This document shows, piece by piece, positions 56,090 through 64,000 of a stretch of DNA of 64,000 bases. Source of the stretch: Dehalococcoidales bacterium (lineage in GTDB: Bacteria > Chloroflexota > Dehalococcoidia > Dehalococcoidales > Fen-1064); the NCBI GenBank assembly GCA_016783135.1, contig JADHXC010000005.1, positions 1 through 64,000 of the forward strand. Reading direction: 5' to 3'. Each line of letters starts with the position of its first letter. The stretch's first letter is position 1. Under the pieces are notes generated by a model. The model saw nothing but the letters and a program-made list of their open reading frames with translations. It was not told where the DNA came from and did no database searches. The translations under genes were made by a program, and so were the position numbers.

Positions 56090-58513
56090 CTAGCCGCGCA
56101 GAACAGCCCCCAACTCACCAGAGAGTCTATTGAGGATACTCTGCTGGACCTTGCTGACCTCATCGTCGGTGAGGGTATGGTACGGTGTCCGGTAGCTGAT
56201 GCGATAGGCAAGTGACTTCTTTCCCGACGGCACCTGCTCGCCGGAATAGACATCAAACAGGGCCACTTCCTCTACCAGAGGAAAGTCACCGATGATATCA
56301 ACAACCTTTTGATGGGTAGTGGCGGCATCTACTACCAGCGCCATGTCGCGGACAACTGCCGGGAAGCGTGATATCGGCTTGAACATCTTTCCAGCGAGGG
56401 TAAGGGGCAAGAGTGCCGGCAGACTGAGCTCGAACAGAAAAGCTGGCTCGGGGACTTCAAAGGCATCCTGCACCGCAGGATGCAATTGCCCGACAACGCC
56501 GAGCCTTGTGCCGTTGCTGATGATGGCGGCCTGGTTCGTCGGGTGCAGGCTCTCGTCGGTCCCCGCTTCGAAGCTGGCAGCCACACCCAGTTGAGCCAGC
56601 AGGCCCTCTACTATTCCCTTGGCATCGAAGAAGTCCACCGGCTCGGTATTGCCGAGCCAGGATGAAGTATGCCGGGGGCCGCTGAGCACGCCGCACAGCA
56701 TTTCGGCCTCATCAGGCAGGTCATTGGGGCGCGGCCGGAATACCCTGCCCAGCTCATAGAGCCGGATACCATCTTCGATATGCCCCCGGTTGGCTGCCAG
56801 AGAGGTTATGACGTTACCCCGCAAATTGGGGCGAAGGTACGTCTGGTCGATGGTCATTGGATTGACCAGTCGGAGTAGTGCTGATTCCGGCGTTTGTGAC
56901 TGCGGCCGCAGCGCGAGCTGCGGCAGGAGCTTACGCAACGATTCCTGGCTGGCCCAGGGATGGGACACTATCTCCTGAAAGCCGTAGCTAACGAGGTGCT
57001 GGCTCAACCTGCGCTTGAACATGATAATAGGTTCCGGGTTGTGAGGTGGTATCGGCTGGTTGAGCATAGTTGTCGGAATCTCATCATACCCGATAATGCG
57101 CGCTACTTCCTCAACGAGGTCCACCGGCAGCCGAATATCGCTCCGCCAGTGAGGGGCAACGGCAACAACCTCTGATTCCGAAGTCCCGGGCCGACACTCG
57201 AAACCCAGCGAAATCAGCGTCTCTTCAATCTGCTTCCTGCTGAACCCAACCCCCAGAATTCGCTTAACACCGTCGGTAGAGACTGTCACTGGCTCCGGCT
57301 CAGCCTTACCCGGGTAGACATCGATAACGCCGCTGGCAACCTGGCCACCGCCCAATTCGGCAATAAGCTGCGTTGCTCTCTTCAGCGCCGGTATGGCCAT
57401 CTCGGGACTGATGCCGCGCTCAAACCGCATACAGGCTTCACTGGGCATTCCCAGTATCCGCCCGGTGTAGTGGATGCTGCGCGGATTGAAGCTGGCCGCT
57501 TCGAGGAGTATGGTAGTGGTGAACTGGCTTACCTCGCTGTTGGCACCGCCCATCACACCGGCGACGGCTACCGCTCTCTCCTTATCCGCGATGACCAGCA
57601 TATCTCCGGAAAGGGTCCGTTCTTCCCCGTCCAGGCTGACAATCACCTCTCCCTCACCGGCACGGCGGACAATAATCTTCCCGCCCGTAATCTCTTCGTA
57701 GTCAAAGGCATGCAGAGGCTGTCCATACTCCAGCATAACGAAGTTGGTGACATCGACGATATTGCTTATTGGCCGCATACCGTAGGAGATGAGTCTTTCC
57801 TGCATCCACCGTGGCGACTCACCCGGCTTCACCCCGGTTATCAGGCTGGCGCAGTACCTGGGGCAGAGGTCAGGGTCTTTAATCTCCACGGACACCTTGC
57901 GCTCAATCGGAGTATCCGTTTCTTTATAGTCTGCATCCGGCAAGTGAACGCTCTGCCCCGTCAGGGCGGCAACCTCCCGCGCTATACCGACCATTGCCAG
58001 GCAGTCCGGCCGGTTGGGAGTCACGTCCATGTTGAGAATAACATCGCCGAGGTAGTCGGCCAGAGGCCTGCCCACTTCCACCTCTTCCGGCAGGATAAGG
58101 ATACCTTCGTGCTCCTCGGAGATACCCAGTTCCTTCTCGGAGCAGGCCATACCACTGGAAACCACGCCACGTATCTTTGCCCGCTTTAGCTTGGCCGGTT
58201 CCCCGGTATGCGGGTCAATAAGCTGAGCACCGACCGGCGCAAAGGCCACCTTGACCCCGACGGCAACATTCGGCGCCCCGCAGACAACCGTCTCTTCACC
58301 GCTACCGTGGTCGATAGTAACCAGCGTAAGGCGGTCGGCATTGGGGTGAGGGGTGACCGCCGTTATCCGGCCAACAACGATGCTGTCCCAGCTCTCCCCG
58401 ACAACCTGGATGCCCTTGACCTCACTGCCGGCCATCGTCAGCCGGTCGGCCACCTCTTTCGGTGGCAGGCTAATATCGACGTATTGCTTTATCCAGTTCA
58501 GTGATACCTTCAT
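56090..58513 (-). CDS. pheT: Phenylalanyl-tRNA synthetase beta subunit
   Basis: MKVSLNWIKQYVDISLPPKEVADRLTMAGSEVKGI...; B5, tRNA-binding and FDX-ACB regions, 807 aa. Confidence 0.97.
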   Translation of the reverse strand: MKVSLNWIKQYVDISLPPKEVADRLTMAGSEVKGIQVVGESWDSIVVGRITAVTPHPNADRLTLVTIDHGSGEETVVCGAPNVAVGVKVAFAPVGAQLIDPHTGEPAKLKRAKIRGVVSSGMACSEKELGISEEHEGILILPEEVEVGRPLADYLGDVILNMDVTPNRPDCLAMVGIAREVAALTGQSVHLPDADYKETDTPIERKVSVEIKDPDLCPRYCASLITGVKPGESPRWMQERLISYGMRPISNIVDVTNFVMLEYGQPLHAFDYEEITGGKIIVRRAGEGEVIVSLDGEERTLSGDMLVIADKERAVAVAGVMGGANSEVSQFTTTILLEAASFNPRSIHYTGRILGMPSEACMRFERGISPEMAIPALKRATQLIAELGGGQVASGVIDVYPGKAEPEPVTVSTDGVKRILGVGFSRKQIEETLISLGFECRPGTSESEVVAVAPHWRSDIRLPVDLVEEVARIIGYDEIPTTMLNQPIPPHNPEPIIMFKRRLSQHLVSYGFQEIVSHPWASQESLRKLLPQLALRPQSQTPESALLRLVNPMTIDQTYLRPNLRGNVITSLAANRGHIEDGIRLYELGRVFRPRPNDLPDEAEMLCGVLSGPRHTSSWLGNTEPVDFFDAKGIVEGLLAQLGVAASFEAGTDESLHPTNQAAIISNGTRLGVVGQLHPAVQDAFEVPEPAFLFELSLPALLPLTLAGKMFKPISRFPAVVRDMALVVDAATTHQKVVDIIGDFPLVEEVALFDVYSGEQVPSGKKSLAYRISYRTPYHTLTDDEVSKVQQSILNRLSGELGAVLRG

Positions 58514-58515
58514 AT

Positions 58516-59571
58516 TTAGAACTGCCTCAAGAACCTGAGGTCGTTATTATAGAACAGGCGGATGTCATCAATCCCGTAGCGCAGCATGTGAAGTCGTTCC
58601 AGACCGATGCCGAAGGCGAAACTGGTGTAGACCTCGGGGTCAATACCGCCGCGCTCAAGCACCCTGGGATGCGTCATCCCCGCTCCCAGTATTTCCAGCC
58701 AGCCTTCATTTCGGCAGTATCGACAACCTTCGCCATGACATATGGAGCACTCAATGGCCACCTCGACCCCGGGTTCAACGAAGGGGAAGAAGTCACACCG
58801 GAAACGCACCCGCCGGTCCCCACCGAAATAGCGGCGCGAGAACTCGTAGAGCGTGCCCTTGAGATCGGCCATGGTGATACCCTTGTCCACGGCCAGACCG
58901 TCGAAATTGACGAACATGCGCAGGTGAGTAGCGTCAGTAGCCTCATAGCGGTAGACCTTGCCCGGCTCAACCACCCTTATCGGTGGCCGCATTCTCTCAA
59001 CAACGCGCGCAGATATCGCCGTGGTCTGGGTGGTCAGTATCATCGGGTACTTCCCGGCCTCATTACGGTAGTCAACCCAGAACGAGGAGTAAGTGTCACG
59101 TGATGGGTGTTCCTCGGGGATGTTGAGTGCCTCAAAGTTGTAGTAGTCCCACTCCACCTCCGGGCCCTCAACCACGTCGAATCCCATGGCGGCGAAGATG
59201 TCACAGACCTCGTGCAGGGTCTGCGTGATGGGGTGCAGTCGACCTGCCGGCACGGGCCGGCCCGGCAGCGTAACGTCGCCACGGGCCAGCAGGGTATCAT
59301 CCACTCTCAGTGATGCCCGGGCTGCTTCCTGCTTCAGCGCTTGGGTCTTTCGGGCAAAGTGCTCGCCGAGGATGGACTTTATCTCGTTGGCCCGTGCACC
59401 GATGGCCTTCCGTTCCTCCAGGGGAAGTCCGGCCAGTCCACGCAGGATACCGGTCAGGTCGCTCTTTCTGCCCAGGTAACGAACGCGCCACGATTCCATG
59501 TCCGTGGCACTGTCAATGGCTTCCAGCTCACGCCGGGCATTCTCGGCCAGTTGCTCCAGTTGTTCCCGCAT
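58516..59571 (-). CDS. pheS: Phenylalanyl-tRNA synthetase alpha subunit
   Basis: [26 protein letters not shown]...[50 protein letters not shown]. Confidence 0.97.
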
Positions 59572-59769
59572 CTGTCACTCACACTGCGTATGTTTTATGT
59601 CCAGATTACATCTGGATTATAGGTTATCCGCCGAGAGACGGTCAAGGAAGCCCGCCATCAACGGTTCACGAGCGAGGTCTCGTTCTATCGAAACCCCGCC
59701 TAATAGCAAATCCCCTTCCCTGGCAGCAAGGAAGGGGATTTGGCAATCATTTTAGAACTCTGCTTTGTC

Positions 59770-60129
59770 TTAGCCCTGGACCTGCTGCCTGGCTATGGTG
59801 ACCAGGCTGCTAAACGACTCCGGTTCCCTTACGGCCATGTCGGCCATCATCTTGCGGTTAATCTCAACACCGGCTTTCTTCAGACCATGAATGAACTGGC
59901 CGTAGGTAAGGCCTTCGGCCCTGCTGGCGGCGTTGACGCGAGATATCCAAAGACGCCTCATGTCACCCTTTCGCTCGCGACGGTGGGCATAGGAATAGCT
60001 CAATGAATGGAGCATTGATTCAGTGGCACGGCGGACCAGTAAGTGCTTGCTTCCCCGGTGCCCCTTGGTCAGGGCAAGCAATCTCTTATGCCTATGATGC
60101 GATGTAACCCCTCTCTTTACTCGTGGCAA
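59770..60129 (-). CDS. rplT: 50S ribosomal protein L20
   Basis: MPRVKRGVTSHHRHKRLLALTKGHRGSKHLLVRRATESMLHSLSYSYAHRRERKGDMRRLWISRVNAA. Confidence 0.97.
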   Translation of the reverse strand: MPRVKRGVTSHHRHKRLLALTKGHRGSKHLLVRRATESMLHSLSYSYAHRRERKGDMRRLWISRVNAASRAEGLTYGQFIHGLKKAGVEINRKMMADMAVREPESFSSLVTIARQQVQG

Positions 60130-60214
60130 AACGCCCCTCCTGCTTCGCTCTGGTGCAATCTCTTCCGTTTCCTGGTCCCCCGCAGAGACCCCTACTCCTC
60201 CTGCAGGGAGGAGC

Positions 60215-60418
60215 CTACTTTACTCCGTAGGGCAGGAGTCTCCTTATCCGGGGCGTGTCACTGGGGCTCACCGGGATTGTCTCATCATAGAGACGCCGCA
60301 CCCGTTTCGGCTTGCGTCGCCGCAGGTGACTTTTCCCGCCTTTTGCCCGCATCATTTTACCAGTACCAGTAATATGGAAGCGACTCTTAGCGCCTTTATG
60401 TGTTTTCAGTTTTGGCAT
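60215..60418 (-). CDS. rpmI: 50S ribosomal protein L35
   Basis: MPKLKTHKGAKSRFHITGTGKMMRAKGGKSHLRRRKPKRVRRLYDETIPVSPSDTPRIRRLLPYGVK. Confidence 0.95.
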   Translation of the reverse strand: MPKLKTHKGAKSRFHITGTGKMMRAKGGKSHLRRRKPKRVRRLYDETIPVSPSDTPRIRRLLPYGVK

Positions 60419-60956
60419 ACTGTGATTCCTTTGCTTTACTCTTCTGGGCATTGGATGGTGTCAGGATGATGTTCATCCGCCTCCCCTCCATCGATGGCTG
60501 CCTCTCCATCACAGAAATATCCTCCAAATCCTTGGCCATCCGTTGCAGTAGCTTCCAGCCAAGCTCAGGATGGGTGACCTCCCTGCCCCGAAACATTATC
60601 GTTACCTTTAGTTTATCGCCTTCGGTCAGCAGCTTCCGAGCTGTCCTGGCCTTGGCATTAAAGTCGTGGTCTCCAATCTTCGGCCGTAGCCGTACTTCCC
60701 TGAGGAGTGATATCTTCTGGCTTCGTCTATCACCCCGTTCGCGCTTGGCCTGTTCGTATTTGTACTTCCCGTAATCAAGAAGCCGACAGACCGGCGGAGC
60801 TGCCGTGGGCGCTACCTCTACCAGGTCGAGGCTCTGCTTCCGTGCCGTCTCCCGTGCTTGGGCCAGGGGCATGATGCCCAACTGTTCACCCTTCTCCCCC
60901 ACGAGACGAACCTCGGTAACCCTGATCTGCTCGTTGATGCGCAGTTTCTTTACTAT
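60396..60956 (-). CDS. infC: Translation initiation factor IF-3, probable ATA start
   Basis: Extended frame (ATA)VKKLRINEQIRVTEVRLVGEKGEQLGIMPLAQARETARKQSLDLVEVAPTAAPPVCRLLDYGKYKYEQAK; in-frame TAG just upstream; GAGGGGTGA RBS. Confidence 0.92.
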   Translation of the reverse strand: MVKKLRINEQIRVTEVRLVGEKGEQLGIMPLAQARETARKQSLDLVEVAPTAAPPVCRLLDYGKYKYEQAKRERGDRRSQKISLLREVRLRPKIGDHDFNAKARTARKLLTEGDKLKVTIMFRGREVTHPELGWKLLQRMAKDLEDISVMERQPSMEGRRMNIILTPSNAQKSKAKESQYAKTENT

Positions 60957-61020
60957 GTTCTAGCTCACCCCTCTTAAGCGTACTGTACTAGCGACACACT
61001 CTATAATACACTGTACCGCA

Positions 61021-62787
61021 CTATTCAAGCAAGGTGTATTCCCTGGCCCGCTCGTTAATATCCTTCCTAATGCCTTCTTTGAGAGCGTCAATAGACTGGC
61101 CCTGCAGTTGCTCACCCGTCCGCAGACGAATCGAAACTGTCGAGCTCTTCAGCTCTTTATCGCCGACTACCAGCATACAGGGCACCTTGTCGAGTTGTGC
61201 CTGTCGTATCTTGAGGTTCATCCTCTCCGACCTGGTATCGACATTGGCCCGGATATCCTCTCTCCTGAGTTCGGCTTCCAGCTTGCGGGCGTAGTCCAGA
61301 TGACGGTCCGCCACCGGGATGATTATCGCTTGAAGTGGGGCCAGCCACACCGGAAAAGCGCCGGCATAGTGCTCGATAAGAAGCCCGAAGAAACGTTCCC
61401 AGGCCCCGAGTAGTGCCCGATGGACCATATATGGCCGATGTTCCTGTCCGTCCGGTCCGGTGTAGACCATGTCGAAACGCTCCGGCAAATTGAAGTCGAA
61501 CTGGATGGTGGTCATCTGCCATTCCCGGCCGAGGGCGTCGTTTATCTTGATGTCAATCTTGGGACCATAGAATGCGCCACCGCCCTTATCTACCTCGTAG
61601 GGCAACTGCATGTCCTCAACAACCTTGCTCAGAGCTGCAGACGCCTGTTGCCACTGTTCCTCGGTGCCTATTGCCTTCTCAGGGCGCGTGGCGATGTATA
61701 TCTTGTAGTCATCGAAACCGAAAGCCTGCCACATGTGGAGTGAGAAGCGCAGTACCTCGGCTATCTCCTCGTCAATCTGCTCCGGCGTGCAGATAATGTG
61801 GGCATCGTCCTGGGTAAAACCGCGGGTGCGCAGCAATCCCAGCAGTACGCCGCTCTTCTCGTACCGGTAGACCGTACCCAGCTCCGCCCAGCGCAGAGGA
61901 AGGTCACGGTAGGAGCGTATCCGGGACTTGTAGAACAGTATGTGGAAAGGGCAGTTCATCGGCTTCAGGTAGTACTCCTGCCCTTCGATGTCCATCGGGG
62001 AGTACATGTTCTCCTGGTAGAAGTCCAGATGGCCGCTCGTCTCCCACAGCGTACTCCGGCCAATATGCGGCGTGTAGAGCAATTCATAGCCGTTGGCGTA
62101 GTGCTCTTTTCGCCAGAAGTCCTCCACCAGGGTGCGAATCCTGCCCGCCCTGGGGCCGTAGATAATCAGGCCGCCACCCACTTCCTCCGGCGAGATGTAG
62201 AGATTGAGCTGCCGGTTCAGACGACGGTGGTCGCGTGTCTCAAGCTCCTCAAGGTGCTTCAGGTGCTCTTCAAGCTCTCCAGCCGTCGGCCAGGCGGTGC
62301 CGTAGATACGCTGCAGCATAGGATTCCTCTCGCTGCCCCGCCAGTAGGCACCGGCAATACCGGTCAGCTTGAAAGCACCGACCTTCCCGCTGGAAGCAAC
62401 GTGGGGCCCGCGGCACATATCGGTGAACGAACCCTGCCGGTACACGGTAACCTTCTCTTCCGGTAACTCATCGATAAGCTCCAGCTTGTACGGCTGGTCG
62501 GCAAACAGCTCCCGCGCACTCTCTTTGGTGACCTCCTCCATTGTAAAGACCTCATCGGCAGCCACGATGTCCTTCATTCTGGCCTCGATAACCGGCAGGT
62601 CTTCCGGAGTCAGCGTCCGCGGCAGGTCAAAATCGTAGTAAAAGCCGTCTTCGATGGTCGGCCCGATGCCGAACCTGGCTTCGGGGAACATGGACTGGAC
62701 CGCCTCCGCCATGATGTGAGCGGTCGAATGGCGCATCATGTCCAGCGCTTCGTCTACGCCTGATTTCATTTTCCTGTCAGGTACCAT
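61021..62787 (-). CDS. thrS: Threonyl-tRNA synthetase lacking the N-terminal TGS domain
   Basis: MRHSTAHIMAEAVQSMFPEARFGIGPTIEDGFYYDF; MNCPFHILFYKS; GLLRTRGFTQDDAHIIC; starts at the editing domain. Confidence 0.95.
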   Translation of the reverse strand: MVPDRKMKSGVDEALDMMRHSTAHIMAEAVQSMFPEARFGIGPTIEDGFYYDFDLPRTLTPEDLPVIEARMKDIVAADEVFTMEEVTKESARELFADQPYKLELIDELPEEKVTVYRQGSFTDMCRGPHVASSGKVGAFKLTGIAGAYWRGSERNPMLQRIYGTAWPTAGELEEHLKHLEELETRDHRRLNRQLNLYISPEEVGGGLIIYGPRAGRIRTLVEDFWRKEHYANGYELLYTPHIGRSTLWETSGHLDFYQENMYSPMDIEGQEYYLKPMNCPFHILFYKSRIRSYRDLPLRWAELGTVYRYEKSGVLLGLLRTRGFTQDDAHIICTPEQIDEEIAEVLRFSLHMWQAFGFDDYKIYIATRPEKAIGTEEQWQQASAALSKVVEDMQLPYEVDKGGGAFYGPKIDIKINDALGREWQMTTIQFDFNLPERFDMVYTGPDGQEHRPYMVHRALLGAWERFFGLLIEHYAGAFPVWLAPLQAIIIPVADRHLDYARKLEAELRREDIRANVDTRSERMNLKIRQAQLDKVPCMLVVGDKELKSSTVSIRLRTGEQLQGQSIDALKEGIRKDINERAREYTLLE

Positions 62788-62855
62788 TATCAGGACTCTC
62801 CATGTATGAAAACAAAACCTCCCGCCCTGACCGGAGACGAAAGGCATAACACTTA

Positions 62856-62884
62856 ATTATACCAGCCGCAAGCTCGCAGTGCAA
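62856..62884 (-). promoter_or_regulatory. Probable thrS promoter
   Basis: On minus strand TTGCAC-N17-TATAAT. Confidence 0.5.
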
Positions 62885-62941
62885 TTGCGCGCTGACTGGA
62901 TAGTACCACCCGCGGTCTCTCGGCCAGGGTCTGCAGGCATA

Positions 62942-62971
62942 TTGACAGGGCAGGCTCTCGTGTGCTACAGT
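62942..62971 (+). promoter_or_regulatory. Promoter of the DAHP synthase leader
   Basis: TTGACA-N18-TACAGT with TGC extended -10; predicted TSS about 62977-62979. Confidence 0.65.
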
Positions 62972-62977
62972 CCGGAT

Positions 62978-63079
62978 ATGCGAGACACTATTACCTCTCA
63001 AGGACTGTATTATTGGTACTATGCATTTCCAGTGCGCACCTGGTGCGCTTGGGAGGTGTTGGTACGGCCGGACGTGTAA
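62978..63079 (+). CDS. Aromatic-rich attenuator leader peptide MRDTITSQGLYYWYYAFPVRTWCAWEVLVRPDV
   Basis: 33 codons with a YYWYYAF cluster between promoter and intrinsic terminator upstream of DAHP synthase. Confidence 0.8.
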   Translation: MRDTITSQGLYYWYYAFPVRTWCAWEVLVRPDV

Positions 63080-63139
63080 CGCGCCAGGTCCGGACCGCAG
63101 GAAAGCTTAAAAGAACCCTCTCAAGCAGAGGGTTCTTTT
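62993..63139 (+). promoter_or_regulatory. Four-segment transcription attenuator
   Basis: 1:2 = 62993-63002/63048-63057; 2:3 = 63048-63060/63114-63125; 3:4 = 63109-63121/63127-63139. Confidence 0.8.
63109..63139 (+). terminator. Intrinsic terminator (attenuator)
   Basis: AAAAGAACCCTCT caagc AGAGGGTTCTTTT, perfect 13-bp stem ending in a T-tract. Confidence 0.9.
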
Positions 63140-63182: not shown

Positions 63183-64000
63183 ATGATTATCATGAAGAGC
63201 GAAGCCACCAAAGAAGAGGTCGCCAACGTAGTAAAAGAAATCCAGAAGTACGGGCTCAGGGCGGACGTCTCCATAGGGGCCTACAGGACCGTAATCGGGC
63301 TGGTGGGAGACGAGAGTAAGATACCGTTTTCCCACTTCACCGTTCTACCCGGAGTCAAAGAGGCGTTCATGGTGGAAACACCCTACAAGCTAATCAGCCG
63401 TGAGTACGCCGGTATGTCCGGGCCGGATATCGAGAACCGGGTCATCAAGGTGGGTGACGTCGAAGTCGGGGGGGGTGAACCGGTATTCATCGCCGGGCCC
63501 TGCGCTGTGGAGAGCAAGGAGCAGCTCTTCCGGATTGCCGAGGGTGTGAAGAAGGCCGGAGCTCACATACTCAGAGGCGGTATCTTCAAGCCGCGGAGCT
63601 CGGTGCACTCCTTCCAGGGGCTCGGCGCCAGCGGTGAAGAAGGTGCACAGCAGGCCCTGGGATGGCTGCGTGAAGCCGGGGATACCTTCGGGATGCCCGT
63701 GGTGACTGAAATCCGTGGTGAAGGACAGGTCGACCTGATTGCGGAATACGTGGACCTGATACAGATAGGGGCCAGGAACATGTACGACCAGGACCTGATT
63801 ACCAAGGTCGCACGGAAGCAGAAGCCCATCCTCTACAAGAGACACTTCGGGGCCGGTATCGAAGAGTTCCTCTCCTTTACCGAGTACATGGTGGCCGAGG
63901 AAAACAAGGATATCATACTGTGTGAAAGGGGAATACTGCCCCTGGGCAAAGGCAAGAGCTACTCCAGGTACACCCTTGACGTGACCGCGGTACCGGTCAT
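63183..64000 (+). CDS. aroF: 3-deoxy-7-phosphoheptulonate (DAHP) synthase, truncated by window end
   Basis: N-terminal ferredoxin-like domain MIIMKSEATKEEVANVVKEIQKYG; FIAGPCAVESKEQLFRIAEGVKKAGAHILRGGIFKPRSSVHSFQGLG. Confidence 0.92.
   Translation, partial: MIIMKSEATKEEVANVVKEIQKYGLRADVSIGAYRTVIGLVGDESKIPFSHFTVLPGVKEAFMVETPYKLISREYAGMSGPDIENRVIKVGDVEVGGGEPVFIAGPCAVESKEQLFRIAEGVKKAGAHILRGGIFKPRSSVHSFQGLGASGEEGAQQALGWLREAGDTFGMPVVTEIRGEGQVDLIAEYVDLIQIGARNMYDQDLITKVARKQKPILYKRHFGAGIEEFLSFTEYMVAEENKDIILCERGILPLGKGKSYSRYTLDVTAVPV

Follow-up and report, generated by a model that had tools for sequence, protein, structure and literature searches.

A predicted ribosome-mediated attenuator with a Tyr-rich leader peptide upstream of the shikimate operon in Dehalococcoidia

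Known leader-peptide attenuators

The nearest functional precedent for the locus described here is the aroR-aroF system of Corynebacterium glutamicum. According to the account in PMC11802643 (citing Neshat et al. 2014), a leader with a Phe-Tyr-Phe run precedes the DAHP synthase operon in this species, stalling on the leader raises transcription, and Phe, not Tyr, is the amino acid to which the system reportedly responds. Going by that account, the two loci are alike in that an aromatic-codon leader is placed upstream of a DAHP synthase operon. They differ in that the present locus comes from an unrelated phylum, its effective codons are predicted to be those for Tyr and Trp, its operon covers the entire route to both Phe and Tyr, and its leader is one of a class-wide family that has the hairpin and segment 2 in common.

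The trpL and pheL attenuators of Escherichia coli (Yanofsky) also resemble the locus in having a leader peptide, four mutually exclusive segments, a stall over segment 1 and an intrinsic terminator. However, there is no detectable homology, since the leader scored below the gathering thresholds of both Rfam models, with 19.8 bits against 55 for Phe_leader (RF01859), and 18.5 bits on the plus strand and 21.7 bits on the minus strand against 41 for Trp_leader (RF00513). The stop codon in trpL and pheL falls between segments 1 and 2, whereas the open reading frame (ORF) here runs on through segment 2, and its codon run is a mixture of Tyr and Trp. In Sinorhizobium meliloti, the trpL attenuator RNA has the leader ATG at its 5' end and is thus leaderless (PMC7298713). 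The leader ORF studied here is similar in this respect, as predicted solely from the promoter spacing, while the S. meliloti leader contains Trp codons and precedes trpE(G). A survey from 2010 described leader-peptide attenuators as known only from the Proteobacteria and Actinobacteria, to which it added the Firmicutes (PMC2965389). No published leader-peptide attenuator from the Chloroflexota was found in a search of mainly open-access literature.

Data and methods

The window is a stretch of 64,000 nucleotides from the contig of a Dehalococcoidales bacterium (JADHXC010000005.1). Its assembly is listed as 7.4% contaminated, and the same leader is seen in two close genomes (L003 and L083). The aroF loci were gathered by a scan of genome contigs and by a class-wide protein search, and represent many families; the genomes are mostly metagenome-assembled. 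Of the 77 non-identical upstream regions obtained, a full analysis was made of 71, from which 61 non-redundant representatives were taken. The regions left out of the 71 were L027, L100 and L104, which have leaders but were lost in the terminator scan, the archaeal L032 and L034, and L029, where a divergent second copy of the gene lacks a leader. L027 and L104 received no terminator call under a stricter U-tract rule, and both show the leader, segment 2 and the terminator. In L004 and L005, where the ATG overlaps the -10 box, the leader was taken to start at a TTG preceded by a Shine-Dalgarno sequence.

Covariation was analysed on a MAFFT alignment built from sequence only. The folding model used RNA ending after segment 3, in which a ribosome footprint of assumed size, from position A-18 to A+13, was masked. 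A covariance model of the leader was searched against the same genomes; matches to aroF leaders are expected by construction, but matches upstream of other genes are not.

Organization of the leader locus

The gene at the end of the window encodes a DAHP synthase, the product of which matches NF006421 with 426 bits (cut-off 335) and also exceeds the cut-off of TIGR01361. Upstream of this gene, a first-pass annotation of the DNA had placed a promoter, a 33-codon ORF, four pairing segments and a terminator, all of which are found at those positions, base for base (Table 1).

Table 1. Features of the aroF leader locus in the window
Feature	Coordinates	Strand	Basis
Sigma-70-type promoter, TTGACA-N18-TACAGT	62942..62971 (TTGACA 62942-62947, TACAGT 62966-62971)	+	Read directly
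Leader peptide ORF, 33 codons, ATG to TAA, MRDTITSQGLYYWYYAFPVRTWCAWEVLVRPDV, run YYWYYAF	62978..63079	+	Sequence
Segment 1, ACCUCUCAAG, pairs with segment 2	62993..63002	+	Sequence, shuffles, folding
Sensor codons Tyr11, Tyr12, Trp13, Tyr14, Tyr15	63008..63022	+	Folding with footprint
Small hairpin GCGCAC-CUG-GUGCGC, between sensor codons and segment 2	63034..63048	+	Position kept in relatives
Segment 2, partner of segment 1 or 3	63048..63060 (CUUGGGAGGU = 63048-63057)	+	Shuffles, covariation
Segment 3, AACCCUCUCAAG, 3' arm of antiterminator	63114..63125	+	Shuffles, covariation
Intrinsic terminator 3:4, 13 bp, loop CAAGC, U-tract	63109..63139 (arms 63109-63121/63127-63139)	+	Sequence, covariation
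aroF, DAHP synthase, ATG at 63183, runs beyond window end	63183..64000	+	NCBIfam NF006421 and TIGR01361

The leader ORF has six aromatic codons in a stretch of seven, a density that no start-to-stop ORF attained when the 137-nt region was shuffled 2000 times with its dinucleotides preserved (the best count averaged 1.3). The duplex between segments 2 and 3 had a shuffle p-value of 0.005, which is the floor with 200 shuffles, and the leader of 205 nt folds 3.75 standard deviations below its shuffles. With 6 nt between the end of the -10 box and the leader ATG, the mRNA is predicted to be leaderless, with the ATG at +1; the leader transcript thus probably starts at the start codon. All loci scanned have a TTGACA-type -35 box and a TATAAT-like -10 box ahead of the leader, with the -35 box deviating by one or two bases in two of them. 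The distance from the -10 box to the leader ATG was bimodal among the 61 representatives, being 6-10 nt in 17 loci and mostly 17-46 nt elsewhere. From this spacing, many leaders in the family are predicted to be leaderless, and the predicted status changes about nine times on the AroF tree.

On the other side of the promoter, a cluster of translation genes that were named by eye from the sequence (thrS-, infC-, rpmI/rplT- and pheS/pheT-like) is located on the minus strand at positions 56090-62847. It is divergent from the aro operon, with which it has the intergenic region 62848-62978 in common.

Conservation and covariation of the leader

All three core elements, namely the aromatic-codon leader, a covarying antiterminator formed by segments 2 and 3, and the terminator, were recovered in the 61 non-redundant representatives. 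The clustering of aromatic codons was significant against shuffles (p <= 0.05) in 59 of these 61 loci, and the first aromatic codon is mostly placed 33-50 nt from segment 2. Among pairs of closely related leaders, which are not independent of each other, there were 19, 29 and 72 substitutions at codon positions 1, 2 and 3, a third-position bias that is consistent with translation of the leader ORF.

The 2:3 duplex was significant by shuffles (p <= 0.05) in 63 of the 71 loci. In the alignment of the 61 representatives, 88.6% of the cells in the 2:3 helix are paired and 49 cells contain double changes, against 20.7 in shuffles. When the register was slid by 1-3 columns, only 54-66% of the cells were paired, and the covariation score of the true register was above those of all shuffles and all slid registers. 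The terminator helix, 3:4, contains 61 double-change cells against 16.4 in shuffles. Segment 3 is common to both helices, which makes the antiterminator and the terminator mutually exclusive. The small hairpin is also conserved, with 80% of its cells paired in the 61 loci and compensatory changes in all five of the pairs tested. The first-pass annotation had let its proposal hang on conservation of the cluster of aromatic codons and of the competing helices in related genomes, and both are kept there, with covariation.

Alternative structures such as these could also belong to an attenuator that binds a small molecule or a protein (a riboswitch, or a TRAP-like or TyrR-like system), in which the leader ORF would be incidental, and nothing beyond the structures themselves points in this direction. 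No Rfam family reached its gathering score in the leader, there is no conserved aptamer-like domain besides the codon run, the hairpin, segment 2 and the terminator, and the most conserved feature is the codon run with its third-position bias. We consider this explanation highly improbable.

Some of the related aroF genes were found without such a leader. The genome of the window contains a second DAHP synthase-like gene (L002, G000:C22:37387-38148), which is 44% identical over the matched part, and no leader of this kind was found upstream of it. The AroF proteins of three archaeal loci (L032-L034, from Bathyarchaeota and an uncultured archaeon) are 53-55% identical to that of the window, as compared to 41-45% for the matches in Firmicutes, and these archaeal genes were also checked for the leader, with a negative result. 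The archaeal likeness represents a possible case of gene transfer.

Predicted effect of ribosome stalling

In the absence of a ribosome, the window leader is predicted to form the 1:2 helix with a probability, P(1:2), of 0.82, while P(2:3) is 0; the free RNA would thus terminate, with segment 2 held upstream, mainly by its pairing to segment 1. With the ribosome placed on the leader, P(2:3) depends on the codon in the A site, and is 0.03 at Tyr11, 0.58 at Tyr12, 0.84 at Trp13 and 1.0 at both Tyr14 and Tyr15, where the outcome for Tyr11 and Tyr12 depends on the assumed footprint. It is 0 at Phe17, and between 0 and 0.01 when the A site is at Phe17, Trp22, Trp25 or the stop codon. Judging from these stall positions, the effective sensors would be three Tyr codons and one Trp codon. 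The proposal that a stall at the Tyr run leads to the antiterminator, while free RNA or a ribosome at the stop codon leads to termination, is thus reproduced by the predictions from constrained folding.

Similar results were obtained for the relatives. The mean P(2:3) by stalled residue in the 61 loci was 0.86 for Tyr, 0.75 for Asn, 0.74 for Phe and 0.69 for Trp, and lowest, 0.19, for Gly and stop codons. Aromatic codons were enriched relative to other codons in the positions that permit antitermination (circular-shift p = 0.001). At some stall position, P(2:3) reached at least 0.8 in 59 of the 61 loci. The other two stayed below this value throughout, with L043 showing none at any position, and P(2:3) was in a number of loci high also with the ribosome at the stop codon.

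In folds of the full-length leader, the 3:4 terminator is always thermodynamically preferred over the 2:3 helix. Since the terminator wins once segment 4 exists, the choice between the two must fall during transcription, that is, kinetically, as in trp. The same preference would be expected from an ordinary terminator behind a chance ORF, without any switching, for which 3:4 would simply be the minimum of every full-length fold. The conservation of the leader, the covariation of the 2:3 helix, and the match between the codon run and the permissive positions across the 61 loci argue against this explanation, which we find scarcely credible.

The role of segment 1

The four-segment design put forward in the first-pass annotation holds for the window, but does not define the family. 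In the window, the 1:2 pairing is strong (-21 kcal/mol) and significant (p = 0.01), and segment 1 is also seen in the folds. Among the relatives, 1:2 pairing was significant by shuffles in only 23 of the 71 loci and by a positional test in 21 of the 61 loci, and the latter test placed the centre of segment 1 mostly 6-10 nt upstream of the aromatic run. The state of segment 1 changes about 13 times, and at least 13 times, on the AroF tree. Taken together, these counts and changes indicate that segment 1 is real in the genus of the window and its sisters and optional in the family. A class-wide segment 1 was ruled out, as 64% of the 1:2 cells were paired in the whole alignment, compared to up to 61% in slid registers.

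The folding model suggests a function for the segment where it occurs. The median P(2:3) of the free RNA was 0.96 for loci without segment 1 and 0.20 for loci with it, such that an untranslated RNA would read through in the former and mostly terminate in the latter. Segment 1 would accordingly set the default when no ribosome loads.

The patchy distribution of segment 1 would fit a three-segment version of the attenuator, in which segment 1 is dispensable and a translating or terminating ribosome blocks the antiterminator by covering segment 2. Segment 1 in the genus of the window would then be a refinement of that lineage, with no other role than to make termination the default of untranslated RNA. 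In loci without segment 1, the median P(2:3) is indeed as low as 0.0001 with the ribosome at the stop codon, as compared to the value for free RNA given above. The stop codon also appeared to be nearer to segment 2 where segment 1 is absent (p = 0.0055, uncorrected for relatedness), but this link was not significant on independent pairs and was rejected. The stop codon in the window is placed 17-29 nt past segment 2, which means that a terminating ribosome would cover only the edge of segment 2, and it is the 1:2 pairing that provides the main hold on segment 2 in the free RNA. We therefore regard the three-segment version as unlikely and retain the attenuator with a functional segment 1 for the window.

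Amino acids predicted to be sensed

The downstream genes, as read in the continuation of the contig (L115), give the operon order aroF-aroB-aroD-aroE-aroK-aroA-aroC-pheA-tyrA, where pheA encodes chorismate mutase-prephenate dehydratase and tyrA encodes prephenate dehydrogenase. These nine genes cover the whole route to Phe and Tyr except for the final transamination, and no trp gene was found among them. Upstream of trpE in the genome of the window (G000:C8) is instead a T-box (RF00230, 94 bits, L254:305-579), and Rfam T-boxes were also identified upstream of trpE in three relatives (L256, L257 and L259). The supply of Trp would thus have a separate sensor. A leader with Trp codons upstream of trpE was sought and not found, the T-box being in its place.

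The codon runs of the 61 loci contain a total of 237 Tyr, 126 Phe and 43 Trp codons. At least two Tyr codons were present in 60 of the 61 runs, and at least one Trp codon in 43. The operon content, the composition of the runs and the T-box at trpE together point to sensing of Tyr, and of Phe in many relatives. The leader in the window would mainly read Tyr, and the leaders across the class mainly Tyr and Phe, while a minor response to Trp would be possible through the single Trp codon in the effective zone. The earlier suggestion that the whole aromatic pool is sensed was too broad for this leader, as the antiterminator opens in the folding model only with a stall at codons 12-15 (Tyr, Trp, Tyr, Tyr), and Phe17, Trp22 and Trp25 are outside the effective stall zone. 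In the relatives, Tyr is more frequent than Phe, and Phe far more so than Trp.

Since the genome does contain T-boxes, as seen at trpE, antitermination by direct reading of an uncharged tRNA could also be envisaged for the aroF leader. However, RF00230 gave no match in this leader at either threshold, and a conserved codon run with the signs of translation is found instead, which leaves the T-box alternative with a negligible probability.

Proposed mechanism

We conclude, with a probability of about 0.9, that the shikimate/Phe/Tyr operon is controlled at this locus by ribosome-mediated transcription attenuation, and that transcription of the operon very probably depends on translation of the leader. 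RNA polymerase would start at or beside the leader ATG, and a ribosome would load on the leader. With ample charged tRNA-Tyr, the ribosome would pass the YYWYY codons and move into and beyond segment 2, so that segments 3 and 4 could pair as the terminator. On a leader that the ribosome has already left or never entered, segment 2 would be captured by segment 1, and termination would follow here too. A shortage of charged tRNA-Tyr, or of charged tRNA-Trp in the case of one codon, would stall the ribosome over segment 1 and expose segment 2, which could then grab the emerging segment 3 before segment 4 is made. The terminator would thereby be blocked, and the genes from aroF through tyrA transcribed. 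In this scheme, we infer the use of the promoter and leader, the translation of the leader, the kinetic win of the 2:3 helix and tRNA charging as the signal.

Related leaders upstream of other operons

The search with the covariance model identified a second copy of the leader architecture, or chassis, in the genome of the window (G000:C46:57554-57722; L170 and L236), with a GTG start and the leader ...RKFVFTGRTRVRLGGIDCT. The operon behind it contains genes for an AMP-binding acyl-CoA ligase, LivH/LivM-like permeases, a probable substrate-binding protein, a LivF-like ATPase and a PaaK-like phenylacetate-CoA ligase. Orthologues of this leader in family f31 are rich in Phe (FNFFFFFFF in L196). 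The operon is possibly involved in uptake of aromatic amino acids or their salvage from aryl acids. In family f62, ilvB-like acetolactate synthase genes (L187 and L202) are located behind the same hairpin, segment 2 and terminator. The leader of L187 is GLILISIIIIVRTVRAPGR, and the leaders of L187 and L202 contain Ile/Leu codon runs (GLILISIIIIVRT; GVLLSILIIVRT), such that the sensor codons have apparently been retuned.

Other matches were located upstream of genes for an aminotransferase (L173, L176 and L179), a CoA-transferase III (L174 and L177), an octopine-DH-like enzyme (L171), a BPD_transp_2 permease (L201), a DctP-type binding protein (L207) and a molybdopterin oxidoreductase (L209), and these leaders mostly contain Tyr/Phe runs. 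The functions of the operons other than aroF are putative. The sequence TGCGCTTGGGRGG occurs 26 times in 61 genomes of the order, as compared to no occurrence of the reversed control, and in the genome of the window it is found twice, once in each of the two leaders. Across 301 genomes sampled from the whole phylum, there was one weak match outside the class. This match (L253 in G572, from another class) consists of a short ORF, MWVLYYFYYGKAPVFGWDNNGKR, and a terminator upstream of a lipoprotein-like gene, and may represent an independent aromatic leader.

These observations raise the idea, to which we give even odds, that the Dehalococcoidia have a modular, lineage-specific chassis that has been reused before several operons with its codon run retuned, in which segment 1 is optional and the ribosome often acts as the anti-antiterminator. 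The parts of such a chassis would be the promoter, an often leaderless ORF, an interchangeable codon run, the GCGC hairpin, the CUUGGGRGG segment and the CCUCCC terminator. Its codons would be tuned to Tyr/Phe for the shikimate operon, to Phe/Tyr for the operon with the Liv-type transporter and aryl-CoA ligase, and to Ile for acetolactate synthase.

Significance

While attenuation of this type is already known, its modular extension is promising. As a class-wide family that can be aligned, these leaders provide a test bed for the evolution of sensor codons, of segment 1 and of leaderless initiation. The use of a T-box for Trp and a translated leader for Tyr/Phe in one and the same genome bears on how lineages choose their RNA sensors. 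Furthermore, the leader codons hint at the function of poorly annotated operons in organohalide-respiring and subsurface bacteria.
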